From Polychytrium aggregatum (Eukaryota > Chytridiomycota > Chytridiomycetes > Polychytriales), in NCBI RefSeq assembly GCF_025602895.1, contig NW_026516215.1:124001-188000 (forward strand): a stretch of DNA of 64,000 nucleotides, written 5' to 3'. Numbering within the stretch: position 1 is the stretch's first letter; each line of letters opens with the position of its first letter. Below are positions 17,319 through 24,980 of this stretch, piece after piece. Below the pieces are notes generated by a model, which ran no database searches, had not been told where the DNA came from, and saw only the letters and a list, made by a program, of their open reading frames with translations. The position numbers and the translations under genes are program-made.

Positions 17319-20300
17319 CTAAGCACCCTCATAGAGCGGGTTGTCATGAAGGCCGCCGGGTGACTGATAGAGCGGATTCATCTGGCCCGAGAAGGGATTG
17401 CCAGTCATGGCGTTCGTCAAGATATTGGAACGAATGAAGTTGGTTCGATAAAAGAAGATTGCTGCTCCTGCGGCCCCCACGGCAGCAACGCCTCCGGCAA
17501 CGGTTGCAGCAATGATAGTGGTGCTTGTGGCAATTGGCGGCTCCTGGACGGTCTCAAAGGGCAGGCAGCCCTGGAAGGGGGCGCTTTCGATCGAAATATA
17601 CGACGGTAGGTCGGTATCAGAAACGAGCGAAACTTCCCTCACAAACATGCTGCCATTGAGTCGACCGGCAAATCGGGTCAGCGTCGCCGACGGAGCGAGA
17701 ACCATTCCGAATAGGCTGGTGTTGCCACTGAAGGCCACAGTCGTGGCATTGGCAAAATTGAGCACCAAGTGTGTTTGGTAAGGAGAGAGCCCCGACATGT
17801 CGAGGTTGCTGACTTGGATGTCGCCGGCTTCTTCGATATTGAGAATCAGGGTAAGCGTTTGGTTGCAACTCTGGCTTGGTAGACTGTCCAGTACGAGACG
17901 AGTACACCTTGACAGGTCGCCAGCAGCGATGGTCACTATGGCGATGACATCTTCGGGAGAGCTTTGGCCGATTGAGATTTGACTATTGTTGAGCTCGTAG
18001 CGCGCATTGTCGGCAGTGGCCAAAAGTGCACTAGAGACCTTGGATAGATACTGAAAGGTGAGGGAGAGATCCGAGGCGTTCTATTTGAGGCATTAATCGA
18101 GTTCTAGTTAATGGTCGAACAAGTAGCAACAGAAGCGCAAGCAAAAGGCGCTGACGGCATCGCAAAGATGGGAAGCCGAAGGATGCAGCGAGATACCCAC
18201 AGGATACGACACACATCCACTTGTCATGAGCGTCACTGACTGGGGATAGGAAGTGTTTGCCCCGTAAAAGTCGCCAAAATAGACTTGTAGTGCAGCCGAG
18301 GCGAGGGAGCCTTGATTAGTGACGTTGCCATTGACGACCGCAGCACCCAATAGAGAGATGGGACTGCCGCTTTGATTCAGATACATGGATATGTTGTCGC
18401 AGGATGAGAGCTTGGCACTGTAGAGGGAAGCACCTATTTGAAGTCCACTGGAGGAGAGATTGCCTCCTACAGCAATGCGTCCGGTGATCGCTTGTTGCAA
18501 GATCAAATAAATGCTGTGTAAGAGGTGGTTACAAACAGCTGGCAACTATCAGCGGGGTGAAAGATGACAACGGGTTCGACCGGACTTTACCTCCTTGATC
18601 GACATTGACACTATCCCGAGCCATTAGCGCATATGAATTGAATGGAAGGCCATCAACAGGACCCCACAACGGTTGTCCACATAAGAAGCCAGAGAGAATA
18701 CGGCAACTTGAAGTTGGGAGCGATTGTGATGGTGACGATGATGGTGATGGAGATGGGGATGGTGATGGCGATGGCGATGGAGATTGTGATGGGGATGGGG
18801 ATGGGGATGGTGATGGTGATGGTGATGGCGATTGTGATGGGGATGGGGATGGTGATGGTGATGGTGGTGGGGATGGAGATGGAGATTGTGATGGTGATGG
18901 CGATGGCGATGGCGATGGAGATTGTGATGGTGATGGCGATGGTGATGGCGATGGCGATGGAGATTGTGATGGTGATGGCGATGGTGATGGTGATGGTGAT
19001 GGTGATGGTGATGGAGGTGGTGATGGGAATGGAGATGGGGATGGGGATGGTGATGGTGATGGTGATGGTGATGGGAATGGAGATGGGGATGGAGATGGCG
19101 ATGGCGATGGCGATGGGGATGGTGATGGAGATGGTGATGGTGATGGAGATGGTGATGGCGATTGTGATGGTGATGGGGATGGGGATGGTGATGGTGATGG
19201 TGATGGTGATGGTGATGGTGATGGTGATGGTGATGGTGATGGTGATGGTGATGGTGATGGTGATGGTGATGGTGATGGTGATGGTGATGGTGATGGTGAT
19301 GGTGATGGTGATGGTGATGGGGATGGTGATGGTGATGGCGATGGCGATGGCGATGGAGATTGTGATGGCGATTGTGATGGTGATGGTGATGGTGATGGTG
19401 ATGGTGATGGTGATGGTGATGGTGATGGTGATGGTGATGGGAATGGAGATGGGGATGGAGATGGCGATGGCGATGGCGATGGGGATGGTGATGGAGATGG
19501 TGATGGTGATGGAGATGGTGATGGCGATTGTGATGGTGATGGGGATGGAGATGGGGATGGGGATGGCGATGGCGATGGTGATGGTGAAGACGTAGTCGTG
19601 GTGTTATCTGTTCCCGTCGAAGGCAAGGTATAGACCAAGGTTAGAAACCAGTCACTTGAATTCGTCCTCTGGGTGGATTCTAACGTTTACAATTACCCAA
19701 GCTTATAACTCACCAGGAACAGTCATACATATGACAGAATGCACCACTGTATCAAGCACAGTCGTGGCAAATGCCAAAATCGTGATGTTAGCATGTGCTG
19801 CGCCACAAATGCTTGGGAGCCGACGGCTCTGGACCCATGCTATCCAAAGTACCATATTCGCCAAAGCATTGATAAAAGGCTCCATGAGAGATCAAATTAT
19901 ACACATCACTCGGTTTTTTTTGCCCATCCCCCCTGCTCTTTGTCTCTGATGCTCACCTTGATCGAAAAAGTTGCTGGTGTAGAACGACCCGGACATTGTA
20001 GCATTGCCGGAGGCACAAAAGTCTTGGAGGGCATATGTTCGAAGATATCCATTGCCCTGGAGTACGAGAGCTTGCAACGATTGAGCGAGCCCACTGCCCT
20101 GCAGATTTTGCAAGGTCCGAGCCGAATCAAACCCGGTGTAGTCGTCATTCTCGGCACTGTCTCCTGGATTTCCGTACTGGGCCAGGGATGTATGGATGGT
20201 GCTTTGGGCAGGTGGTGGACTTGTTGACGACGCCAGGGTGTTATAGTAGGCGTTGTGCGAATCAAAAGTGCTTTGGGGCCCATATATATTGGCATTGAAG

Positions 20301-21998
20301 TCGCTCTTGATCAGGATGGACACCAGAGCCTGACTGCTCAGGATGGCGTTGGCCGTGGCGGCGATTTCGGCGTAGGCCACATCAGCCAAGACGATGGGCT
20401 CGGGCGAATTGCGATAGATCTGGTTTTGTCTAGACGATTTGTAGTATATGCTTGGAGAAAAAGTTGGCTCGAACTGATATGTCGAGTACGGCGGGTACGA
20501 TTTTGGACACCGCCGCGAATCTAAAAGTGAAGTTGGTGATTGGGTGAACCCATGGTACATTAATATGGCCCTTGCATCGCAAAAGGTAGCCAACGGCAAT
20601 CGATGTCCTTATCTTGAACATGAACCAGCAGTTGTTTCCCCTCGCACCGGAAAGACGCACCAACAAGGGTGGTTGCACAGGCATAGGCCGAAGCATTTTG
20701 ACCGGCGAGGGTATATTTACTGCAGCGATAATGGCCATGGAGAGCGACGAGGCTTGATTAGATCATTCGCACCGCTTCTGCACGCATCATGACAGAACAA
20801 CGCAAGGCATTGAAGACAGCGTGTCGCCACCTGGGCAAAGGCACCAAGGTTATGACTTTTTGCTGTAACCTACGCGAGGAGCGGAAGATCGCTGTCTTCA
20901 TCGGTGACCAGGATGATCTGCTTTTGGCTGGCTGGATTCCATTGAAGCGAGCAGTCCTGACTGGTGGTAAAGTCTGACTGCAAGGTGCGCAGGACACACA
21001 ATTGGCCGCACGGCGAGTGGAAAGCACAGTCGCGAGGTCAGCCGCTGACTTTGCACGGCTTCAAGCTAGCCACTGACTCTGGATAACTCCAAGGCTGCCC
21101 TCACGAGCGGCCACAGTACGAATGTGCCGGGGGGCCGTTGGTAAGGGTTCATCGGTGTGCTGCGACCAGGAATGCTTACCATGCACGTTTGGGCCAAGTC
21201 TGCGGGGTTGGTTAGCACCACCCTGATGGCTTCCAGTCCTGGTGCGATTTGGGAAATCCACCGTTCAGATTTATGCGTAGCAAGTGAAAGGGAGAAGGGT
21301 GGGAAGGAAGAGGAAGAGGAGGAGGAGGAAGGCGAGAATGTCCAGTCAGATCCAGTGGTTGGGCAGCGTTCGACAGCTGCATAATATTTGATGCGCACTG
21401 CATCGAGGGCAATCGGGAGGCATACCGGCTTCCTGAGCCAAGCCCGAGCAGCCGACAGCGCGCAGGGCACTCTGGGTCACATTCCCGTCCATCTGGAAGT
21501 GACGTGGCACCCATGGAGCGGCAGAAGTACCCGACGAGTCGGATCGACGAAGCGAGAAGCAGACATGAGAGAGTCAGCACGGCTTTGCTAATAAAAAGAT
21601 CCAGACCAAGGCTCTGACCTCATCGTCAGACCATCACGATGGCTCCGCAGGCCGAGCAAGCTCGTGGGAACCGATGGAGCTGCCCTGTGTGGTGCGACGG
21701 TGCGGCTCACCGTAAATGGGAGGTAGATGGATGGCAGTCCGCCAAAGGTCACGATGCCGAAGCGGGCGTTAACGCTGCGGTCGGCGAGATTCTGAACAAA
21801 GGTCGACAGGCCGTCGGCAATGGCGAGTTGGTAGGGACACATGCTCGGAGAAATGTCGATGAGGAACAAAAAGTCGGACGCGAACTGAACCCGGTTGATG
21901 GTGGTTGTGTTTTGGCACACAATGGCCGCCAAGACCCGATGAAGTCCCAGGGAGCTGACGAAGAGCCAGACGAGAAGCCACCATGGCGGAGTAAACAT
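17319..21998 (-). CDS. Integrin-beta/Sib-like surface receptor: vWA, Ser-Pro stalk, choice-of-anchor-A-like domain, TM, NPLY tail
   Basis: Multi-exon gene for a type I membrane protein, probably over 1,100 residues. Order: signal peptide ([19 protein letters not shown]...); vWA domain with MIDAS DISPS in [35 protein letters not shown] and [11 protein letters not shown] (about 21890-20920); a mixed region near 20600-19700; a ~290-residue (Ser-Pro)n stalk (19590-18715); a choice-of-anchor-A-like region ([62 protein letters not shown]); a Gly/Ala-rich membrane helix ([20 protein letters not shown], about 17510-17450); and a short tail with NPFS, NPLY and NPLY, ending 17322. Tail NPxY motifs bind talin/PTB proteins in integrins. 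The single-gene assignment rests on common strand, continuous frame logic and one signal peptide/TM pair. Splitting into two genes near 19650 is the main alternative. Confidence 0.7.
18715..19592. repeat. GATGGN hexanucleotide repeat encoding the Ser-Pro stalk
   Basis: Nearly 880 bp of GATGGT/GATGGC/GATGGG/GATGGA units with occasional GATTGT and GGTGGT variants. On the minus strand it reads Ser-Pro dipeptides (tca cca tcg cca), with rare Gln or Phe. Synonymous variation at Ser and Pro third positions, with the dipeptide kept, supports coding on the minus strand. Higher-order duplications are visible, for example a block at 19069-19170 that recurs at 19435-19533. Confidence 0.93.
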
Positions 21999-23045: not shown

Positions 23046-24980
23046 TTAGTAGTAGCCGGGGGTGGAGGTGGGGGTGGCGGTAGCCGAGGGAGCGGCGGAG
23101 GAGTAGACGGGGGTGGTGGAGGGGGTGACGGAGGGAGTGGCGGAGGCCGAGGAGTAGACGGGGGAGTAGCCCGAAGAGCAGGGGTTGGTGGGGGTGGCGG
23201 TGCCAGAGGGAGCAGCCGAGGAGTAGACGGGGGTGGTGGAGGGGGTGACGGAGGGAGTGGCGGTGGCCGAGGAGTAGACGGGGGTGTAGCCCGAAGAGCA
23301 GGGGTTGGTGGTGGGGGTGGCAGTGCCGGTGGGGGCAACCGAGGAGGAACCGTAGACGGGGGTGGTGGCAGAGCCGGTGGGAGCGGCAGAGGAAGAGCCG
23401 TAGACGGGGACGGACGAGGGGGTGACGGTGCCGGTGGGGGCAACGGAGGAAGAGCCGTAGACGGGGGTGGTGGCAGTGGGCTTGGCAGAGGAGGAGACCT
23501 CAGCAGTGCAGGGGGTGGTGGTAGGGGTGGCGGTGGCGGTGGGGGCAACCGAGGAGGAACCGTAGACGGGGACCGAGGCAGTGGTGGTAGCAGTGCCAGT
23601 GGGGGCAACGGAAGAAGAGCCGTAGACGGGGGTGGTGGCGGTGGCCTTGGCGGAGGAGGAAACCTCAGCAGTGCAGGGGGTGGAGGTAGGGGTGGCGGTG
23701 GCGGTGGGGGCAACCGAGGAGGAACCGTAGACGGGGACCGAGGCAGTGGTGGTAGCAGTGCCAGTGGGGGCAACGGAAGAAGAGCCGTAGACGGGGGTGG
23801 TGGCGGTGGCCTTGGCGGAGGAGGAAACCTCAGCAGTGCAGGGGGTGGAGGTAGGGGTGGCGGTGGCGGTGGGGGCAACCGAGGAGGAACCGTAGACGGG
23901 GACCGAGGCAGTGGTGGTAGCAGTGCCAGTGGGGGCAACGGAAGAAGAGCCGTAGACGGGGGTGGTGGCGGTGGCCTTGGCGGAGGAGGAAACCTCAGCA
24001 GTGCAGGGGGTGGAGGTGGGGGTGGCGGTAACGGTGGCAGCCAGGGAGGAGGTGGCAGAGGGAGTACCGTAGACGGGGGTGGTGAGGGTAGCCTTGGCGG
24101 AGGAGGAGACCGAGGGGGTGCCGTAGACGGGGACAGTGCCAGTGGGGGTGGCGGTAACGGTGGCAGCCAGGGAAGAGGTGGCAGAGGGAGTACCGTAGAC
24201 GGGGGTGGTGACGGTGGCCTTGGCGGAGGAGGAGACCGAGGGGGTGCCGTAGGTGGGGGTAGCGGTGCCGGTGGGGGCAACGGAGGAGCTGGCCTTCTTG
24301 GAGCACTTCTTCTTGGTGGCGGTGGTGGTGCCGGTGGGAGTAGCAGTGCCGGTGGGCTTGGCCGAGGAGATGGCGGAGGGAGTGCCGTACGAGGGGGTGG
24401 TGGTGGCGGTAACGGTGGCAGCCAGGGAGGAGGTGGCAGAGGGAGTGCCGTAGGCGGGGACCGAAGCGGGGGTGGTGGCAGTGGGCTTGGCCGAGGAGAC
24501 GGCAGAGGGAGTGCCGTACGAGGGGATGGTGGGGGTGGCAGTGGCGGTGGGAGCGGCCGAAGAGGCAGCAGAGGGCTGGCCGTAGACGGGGAGGGTAGGG
24601 GTGGAGGTGGCGGTGGGAGCAGCAGACGAGACGGCGGAGGGAGTGCCGTAGACGGGGGGGACTGGGAGAAAGAATAGAAAGCATATTTAGTCAGGAGCGA
24701 GTCAGGCCAACGAGGAGCGAGCACCTAGTCGCAGCTTCGCCCTCTCATGAGAAGCCCTGCAGGAAAGTGGTCTTCCGCAGGTTGCAGCACGAGCGAGCTG
24801 GTTTGCTGTCGTCGCTTGGAGATGGCCCAGCAAATTCGTCATCGCTGATGCCGCTCCCGCTGCTTCTCTGATTCAGTTTCAGTTTCAGTTTCTGGCTCCG
24901 GGATAAGACCTACCGTAGGCAGCCTGAGCCGAGACGGCAACAGAGGCGATGACAGCAGCAGAGATGAGGGCGGACTTCAT
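23046..24980 (-). CDS. Secreted Ser/Thr/Pro/Ala-rich tandem repeat protein
   Basis: Two exons, 24980-24914 and 24661-23046, give 560 residues. Exon 1 encodes a signal peptide (MKSALISAAVIASVAVSAQA, then AYG). The mature part is built from VYGTPSA-SS-AxPTATxTP units, with KATATTPVYGSSSVAPTGTA and PCTAEVSSS variants, one Lys-rich insertion (TKKKCSKKASS, near 24300), and a short C-terminus TPGYY. Three 165-bp tandem copies cover 23506-24000. The high Ser/Thr content predicts heavy O-glycosylation, and the few Cys residues recur in CTAEV. No GPI signal or membrane helix follows. It is probably an extracellular or wall-associated mucin-like protein. The Pro-only reading in another minus frame is a shadow. 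A TTTAAATA element lies near 25105, upstream. Confidence 0.85.
23506..24000 (-). repeat. Three 165-bp tandem repeats within the secreted protein
   Basis: The word GTGCAGGGGGTGG recurs at 23506, 23671, 23836 and 24001, giving an exact period of 165 bp (55 codons). Copies two and three are almost identical over their full length, while the first differs by a few substitutions and diverges at its left end. The fourth start at 24001 leads into a diverged unit. Confidence 0.93.

Follow-up and report, generated by a model that had tools for sequence, protein, structure and literature searches.

A candidate integrin/Sib-like receptor with a tandem NPLY tail in the chytrid Polychytrium aggregatum

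What would a fungal talin hold on to at the cell surface? Talin without integrin has been reported from chytrids and gut fungi, according to an excerpt of PMC5042518, and the question is raised anew by a gene lying whole on the minus strand (21998-17319) of the window, that is, the entire analysed stretch of 64,000 nucleotides from Polychytrium aggregatum (Chytridiomycota, Polychytriales according to NCBI; contig NW_026516215.1, positions 124,001 to 188,000), whose product joins a von Willebrand factor A (vWA) domain to a short tail with two NPLY motifs. The original prediction, made from the letters alone, took it for a possible integrin-like adhesion receptor; of the checks it proposed, structure prediction of the vWA, a search for other fungal proteins combining vWA, membrane segment and NPxY tail, and a search for talin in the same genome gave results in line with it. 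We consider that the product is probably a single-pass, talin-linked adhesion receptor of zoosporic fungi, which would work like integrin beta or the Dictyostelium protein SibA with no known alpha partner. As an architecture, an integrin/Sib-like receptor is well supported by sequence and prediction, from which the gene structure, the conservation and the fold are read, because the head has a predicted beta-I-like fold and a loop-2 Glu, there is one membrane segment, the tandem NPLY tail is conserved, and the genome contains talin and vinculin-like exons.

Whether head and tail belong to one molecule is a matter of the gene itself, which lies on contig C35 of a 64.7 Mb assembly. Its ten exons, between which lie nine GT-AG introns, would encode a single-pass protein of 1080 aa with, in order, a hydrophobic leader, the vWA, a Ser-Pro stalk, a choice-of-anchor-A domain, a Gly/Ala-rich membrane segment and a tail of 44 aa. 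The vWA with its intact metal-ion-dependent adhesion site (MIDAS) behind a leader, the stalk, the choice-of-anchor-A-like domain and the two NPLY motifs within the last 19 residues had all been predicted, and all are found: the stalk has 286 aa, with Ser or Pro at 274, and the domain matches PF20597 with 88 bits (cut-off 23.8; E 1.2e-24). The public model of the gene, P0001 (BJ171DRAFT_580392; 721 residues), splices the stalk out as intron and stops exon 9 short. Since the stalk repeat is open in several frames, its openness alone is no proof of coding; exon 8, which bears it, is better backed, because the same exon carries the first choice-of-anchor-A strands and raises the PF20597 score, which falls to 63.4 bits in the public model lacking both the exon 8 end and the longer exon 9.

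When the last exon was compared with the rest of the genome, a paralog came to light on contig C1, for which a model of 1587 residues was built with splice sites picked by hand under the guidance of the alignment. Its domain order is that of the receptor, with a stalk of 795 residues, and its nine introns match in place, have identical phases and end in GT-AG; identity between the two is 223/382 in the vWA parts, 149/388 in the C-terminal parts and 15/19 in the last 19 residues. These nine GT-AG introns, the matching paralog and a public model that runs from vWA through tail as a single gene confirm, at the level of gene models, that the vWA and the NPLY tail belong to one gene and that the feature is real, no split being present in any of the three models. 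A split gene and an extracellular tail were the two results that the original prediction had named as speaking against it, and neither was found by sequence and prediction. That two neighbouring genes were misread as one might be suggested by the shortened public model and by the derivation of the hand-built models from sequence only, yet public and hand-built models alike join vWA to tail and the paralog shares every intron place and phase, so that such an artefact is hardly credible. The last exon of the paralog is present twice with equal score, at C1:134707 (minus strand) and C1:157663 (plus strand), some 23 kb from each other and in inverted orientation, which is either a palindromic duplication or an assembly fold-back.

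The conservation of the tail was followed in three protein searches, each of which scored only the approximately 8,000 candidates sharing most words. Besides the public copy, 14 relatives were taken as fungal, which with the receptor and the paralog make 16 members. Nine are assigned to species: Synchytrium endobioticum, S. microbalum (two), Irineochytrium annulatum (two), Rhizophlyctis rosea, Neocallimastix lanati, Piromyces sp. E2, and Amoeboaphelidium occidentale, an aphelid (Aphelidiomycota according to NCBI). The other five are metagenome proteins. In the vWA tree P0002, P0003 and P0005 fall together with the gut fungi (support 100/100), and P0010 falls beside Rhizophlyctis; P0013 is 89% identical to P0010. 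All named eukaryotic matches are zoosporic fungi, and no named Dikarya protein is among the matches listed. The membrane segment is reached in nine of the 16 (receptor/P0001, paralog, P0002, P0006, P0007, P0008, P0010, P0013 and P0022), and in eight of these the whole protein contains exactly two NPx[YF], both of the form NPL[YF] and both in the tail, at a spacing of 12 in five members and 11 in three. The tandem NPLY tail has been preserved among Chytridiomycota, an aphelid and a protein clustering with gut fungi, and it is retained without a PF20597 match in P0002, P0006, P0007, P0008, P0010 and P0022; P0003 and P0005, for their part, likewise pair choice-of-anchor-A with vWA domains. We define here a zoosporic-fungal vWA-TM-NPLY family by a vWA of this clade, a stalk, a membrane segment and a tandem NPL[YF] tail, to which the receptor, on its sequence, belongs. 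The architecture had been predicted to be unlike either known family, integrin beta chains or Sib proteins; this holds for the whole protein, while its vWA-stalk-membrane-NPLY core is common to other zoosporic fungi. Within Polychytrium, PF20597 matches lie on 11 contigs and the tandem motif, within the loci examined, on three (C1, C35 and C69). On C69 and on C323 there are tandem choice-of-anchor-A units of equal score, about 2.75 kb apart, and on contig C223 a frame of 592 aa has a comparable Gly/Ala-rich membrane segment, after which, by eye, SH3-like stretches come.

The tandem motif is not a product of chance, because shuffled tails yield two NPL[YF] in 0 to 3 of 200,000 cases (three for the receptor, one for the paralog, none for each of six other homologs). 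Each of the eight complete tails was also compared on its own with the 24,736 families of Pfam at E up to 10; for seven of them the sole family listed is the integrin beta cytoplasmic domain (Integrin_b_cyt, PF08725), with E values of 0.0011 (P0010), 0.014 (receptor), 0.021 (paralog), 0.052 (P0022), 0.13 (P0002), 0.2 (P0007) and 0.41 (P0008), and none was listed for P0006. In four of the eight the match runs across the two motifs as far as the profile's end, which their spacing of 12 permits; the matches are a likeness, in sequence, of a short motif pair and no proof of descent. The membrane segment is Gly/Ala-rich, much as had been predicted, but the GxxxG spacing then read into it is absent from receptor and paralog, and only P0010 has it among the seven proteins tested.

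The predicted structure of the vWA head matches integrin beta best, in all 50 of the matches listed, a beta-I-like fold with 12-19% identity over the structurally aligned residues. The residues of the MIDAS are all present, namely DISPS, an integrin-type loop-2 Glu (QE) and a loop-3 Asp (TDED), and among 22 fungal vWA domains (the truncated P0013 left out) the full D-x-S-x-S is found in 20, the exceptions being P0012, which starts inside the motif, and the degenerate P0017, while loop-2 Glu and loop-3 Asp are each found in 21. The acidic pair of the site adjacent to the MIDAS (ADMIDAS) was not found just after it: the receptor has C-P-Y where integrin beta-6 has D-D-D, which we take to be the ADMIDAS, and Tyr occupies position +8 in 21 of the 22 fungal domains. 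The Integrin_beta head profile (PF00362) is not listed for the receptor in the Pfam scans; among the relatives, P0002 exceeds its cut-off of 24.8 with 38.9 bits and P0022 stays under it with 15.6. A six-frame scan of the genome gave no PF00362 match either, a weak test, since introns split genes and control genomes were equally silent, and no PSI, hybrid or EGF-like domains are listed in the Pfam scans of receptor and relatives. As an integrin, the receptor was rejected, lacking ADMIDAS acids and any integrin beta accessory domain found, and with head and tail profiles under cut-off or unlisted; the integrin-like adhesion receptor of the original prediction stands as an architecture and lacks features of integrin beta chains that were tested for.

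The closest non-fungal vWA sequences, among the matches listed, are bacterial-type PEP-CTERM vWA proteins, and in a tree of 21 fungal and 17 bacterial domains (P0013 and P0022 left out) one branch separates the two sets with support 100/99. At two other loci, C364:992032 and C385:200642, an open frame of 800 aa has a vWA match, and its C-terminal stretch looks, by eye, like a module of Hint/intein type (CFAEGTRVRM).

The genome that carries the receptor also carries a talin gene, on contig C13, where FERM and I/LWEQ matches lie about 7 kb apart with long helical frames between them that look, by eye, like the rod. The F3 domain of this talin shares 62 of 88 residues with that of mouse talin-1; of 28 positions listed, 22 are identical, including K324, L325, R358, W359, A360, S365, Y377, S379, I396 and I398, which presumably lie at or near the integrin tail, and those that differ are I356, K357, S362, Q374, G376 and A393. 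Vinculin-like exons are found on contig C24, and a second I/LWEQ gene (C312/C368) resembles, by eye, Sla2. In Dictyostelium, according to an excerpt of PMC9197732, talin A is bound by all Sib proteins, by SibA through its membrane-proximal NPxY, and a talin-myosin VII complex is known; the main text of a 2025 paper on SibA-talin force coupling (PMC12686525) does not contain the word chytrid. Contig C90 has FERM_M matches beside stretches that look, by eye, MyTH4-like and cytochrome b5-like.

Set beside known systems, the receptor is like SibA-E in being type I, with a vWA and a Gly-rich membrane segment, and like SibA in its two NPxY (excerpt of PMC9197732), provided that its tail is, as seems probable, on the cytosolic side. 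It differs from them in that its vWA, at 20.2 bits in the final model, stays under the vWA_SIBA-E cut-off of 27 (the profile is not listed for the public model; P0005 exceeds it with 28.2), in the Ser-Pro or Thr stalks of the fungal family, and in its own choice-of-anchor-A domain. It shares with integrin beta the predicted fold, the loop-2 Glu, one membrane segment and a tandem NPxY tail with sub-threshold Integrin_b_cyt matches, and departs from it in the ADMIDAS, the unlisted PSI, hybrid and EGF domains and the low vWA identity; no integrin alpha partner is known for it, no search aimed at alpha-subunit families having been made. With the PEP-CTERM vWA proteins of Nitrosomonas, Nitrospira, Gammaproteobacteria and others it has in common PEAGLEAI-type and TDEDSD-type motifs, but those proteins have PEP-CTERM-type ends, where the end is seen, and the fungal family the NPLY tail; integrin beta-A-like domains in bacteria have been reported before, according to an excerpt of PMC3192720. 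Finally, the membrane-proximal PF20597 domain is that of choice-of-anchor-A (pAdhesive_15) proteins, most of which in Polychytrium differ from the receptor, within the loci examined, in lacking the tandem motif.

From these likenesses we infer how the receptor would be placed in the cell, that it would bind ligand, metal and talin, and what its biological role may be. The beta-I-like head, through its putative metal-binding MIDAS, would bind a surface or matrix in a metal-dependent manner, to which, in Polychytrium, the choice-of-anchor-A adhesive domain would add further surface or matrix binding; the long Ser-Pro stalk would set the reach past glycocalyx or young wall; and the tandem NPLY tail would dock on the PTB-like (phosphotyrosine-binding) F3 domain of the fungus's own talin, which would couple contact to actin, with vinculin reinforcing. 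Such a receptor could serve in zoospore attachment or crawling, in encystment or in early wall contact.

A number of findings weigh against a talin-linked receptor. The PF08725 matches of the tails are all under the curated cut-off of 23.4 bits (the best, P0010, 19.1; receptor 15.6), the receptor tail found no integrin chain in PDB, and the family profile, against PDB sequences, had as its top matches collagen VI and a bacterial pilin rather than integrin beta. Seven of the 16 gene models stop before any membrane segment, with tails unseen; P0013 breaks off after ANP, its first motif incomplete; and P0004 (Neocallimastix) ends in Cys-rich repeats with no membrane segment. A third Polychytrium choice-of-anchor-A gene that has a membrane segment (C69) carries NPLYQAPTSTGGTNPIY just downstream of that segment in the +1 frame (NPLY..NPIY out of frame), and is either a damaged copy or an assembly error. 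Scaffold genes were not upregulated on cellulose in Orpinomyces, according to an excerpt of PMC5042518, and the NPxY motifs could also serve endocytosis, instead of or besides adhesion.

It is from this last point that the main rival arises, in which the tail would be an endocytic sorting signal read by PTB-type cargo adaptors, and the protein a receptor for uptake or scavenging that is internalised and has no actin link. NPxY is a general PTB ligand, and the motif of the low-density lipoprotein (LDL) receptor read by such adaptors, FDNPVY, is nearly matched by the FDNPLY of paralog and P0010 and the FENPLY of P0022; we nevertheless hold this explanation to be unlikely, given two motifs so spaced that in half of the tails the Integrin_b_cyt profile can be aligned over the pair, a predicted beta-I-like head, and named eukaryotic matches that are all zoosporic fungi, where chytrids and gut fungi have talin without integrin (excerpt of PMC5042518). 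Less probable still is an adhesin of the surface or wall that would act through its ectodomain alone, the tail being a tag for membrane retention or trafficking without signalling: the paralogs are identical at 15 of the last 19 residues against 149 of 388 over the C-terminal part, and six members keep the tandem motif with no PF20597 match, even if choice-of-anchor-A is a putative adhesive domain, present on eight more Polychytrium contigs with no tandem motif in the loci examined, and the long Ser-Pro stalks are wall-like. A true descendant of integrin beta with an undiscovered alpha partner would agree with the predicted fold, with the P0002 match to PF00362 and with the sub-threshold tail matches; against the missing ADMIDAS acids and accessory domains, the nearest non-fungal sequences being bacterial-type PEP-CTERM vWA proteins among the matches listed, and the empty, if weak, PF00362 genome scan, it appears very improbable. 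The coordinates on which the talin-linked receptor rests are collected in Table 1.

Table 1. Features of the receptor gene in the window (positions numbered from its first letter)
Feature	Position	Strand	Remarks
Exon 1	21711..21998	-	ATG at 21998, leader, start of vWA with MIDAS DISPS; GT donor 21710; phase matches paralog model
MIDAS DISPS	residues 48-52, 21857-21843	-	
Exon 2	21426..21492	-	vWA, runs into loop-2 QEAGLEAI motif (MIDAS Glu)
Exon 3	21180..21238	-	vWA
Exon 4	20874..20977	-	vWA, loop-3 VTDEDSDLP motif (MIDAS Asp)
Exon 5	20661..20719	-	vWA insert
Exon 6	19957..20520	-	C-terminal vWA part
Exon 7	19714..19746	-	End of vWA unit
Exon 8	18591..19607	-	Ser-Pro stalk and first strands of choice-of-anchor-A domain
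Exon 9	18201..18490	-	choice-of-anchor-A (pAdhesive_15) domain
Exon 10	17319..18080	-	Remaining choice-of-anchor-A, membrane segment, tail (presumably cytosolic), stop
Gly/Ala-rich membrane segment	residues 1016-1036, 17454..17516	-	By hydropathy; no GxxxG; Arg residues after it
Membrane-proximal NPLY	17367..17378	-	
Distal NPLY	17331..17342	-	12 residues beyond first NPLY

Adjoining the receptor gene, on the minus strand of the window (23046-24686), is a 546-aa open frame with PVYGTPS and TATPT-type repeats, perhaps a wall or surface protein.

The receptor offers a concrete candidate for what talin would bind in a fungal genome that has talin. Whether the zoosporic-fungal family, in Chytridiomycota, gut fungi and aphelids, is in general the missing receptor of fungal talin, lost with the zoospore, with a beta-I-like head closest in sequence to bacterial vWA and a tandem NPLY tail that takes the part of integrin beta with no alpha subunit, is a proposal to which we would give even chances. 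If true, integrin-free talin adhesion would span amoebae and fungi, and this would bear on the origin of integrin adhesion and on the way in which the zoospores of chytrids and aphelids grip or crawl.
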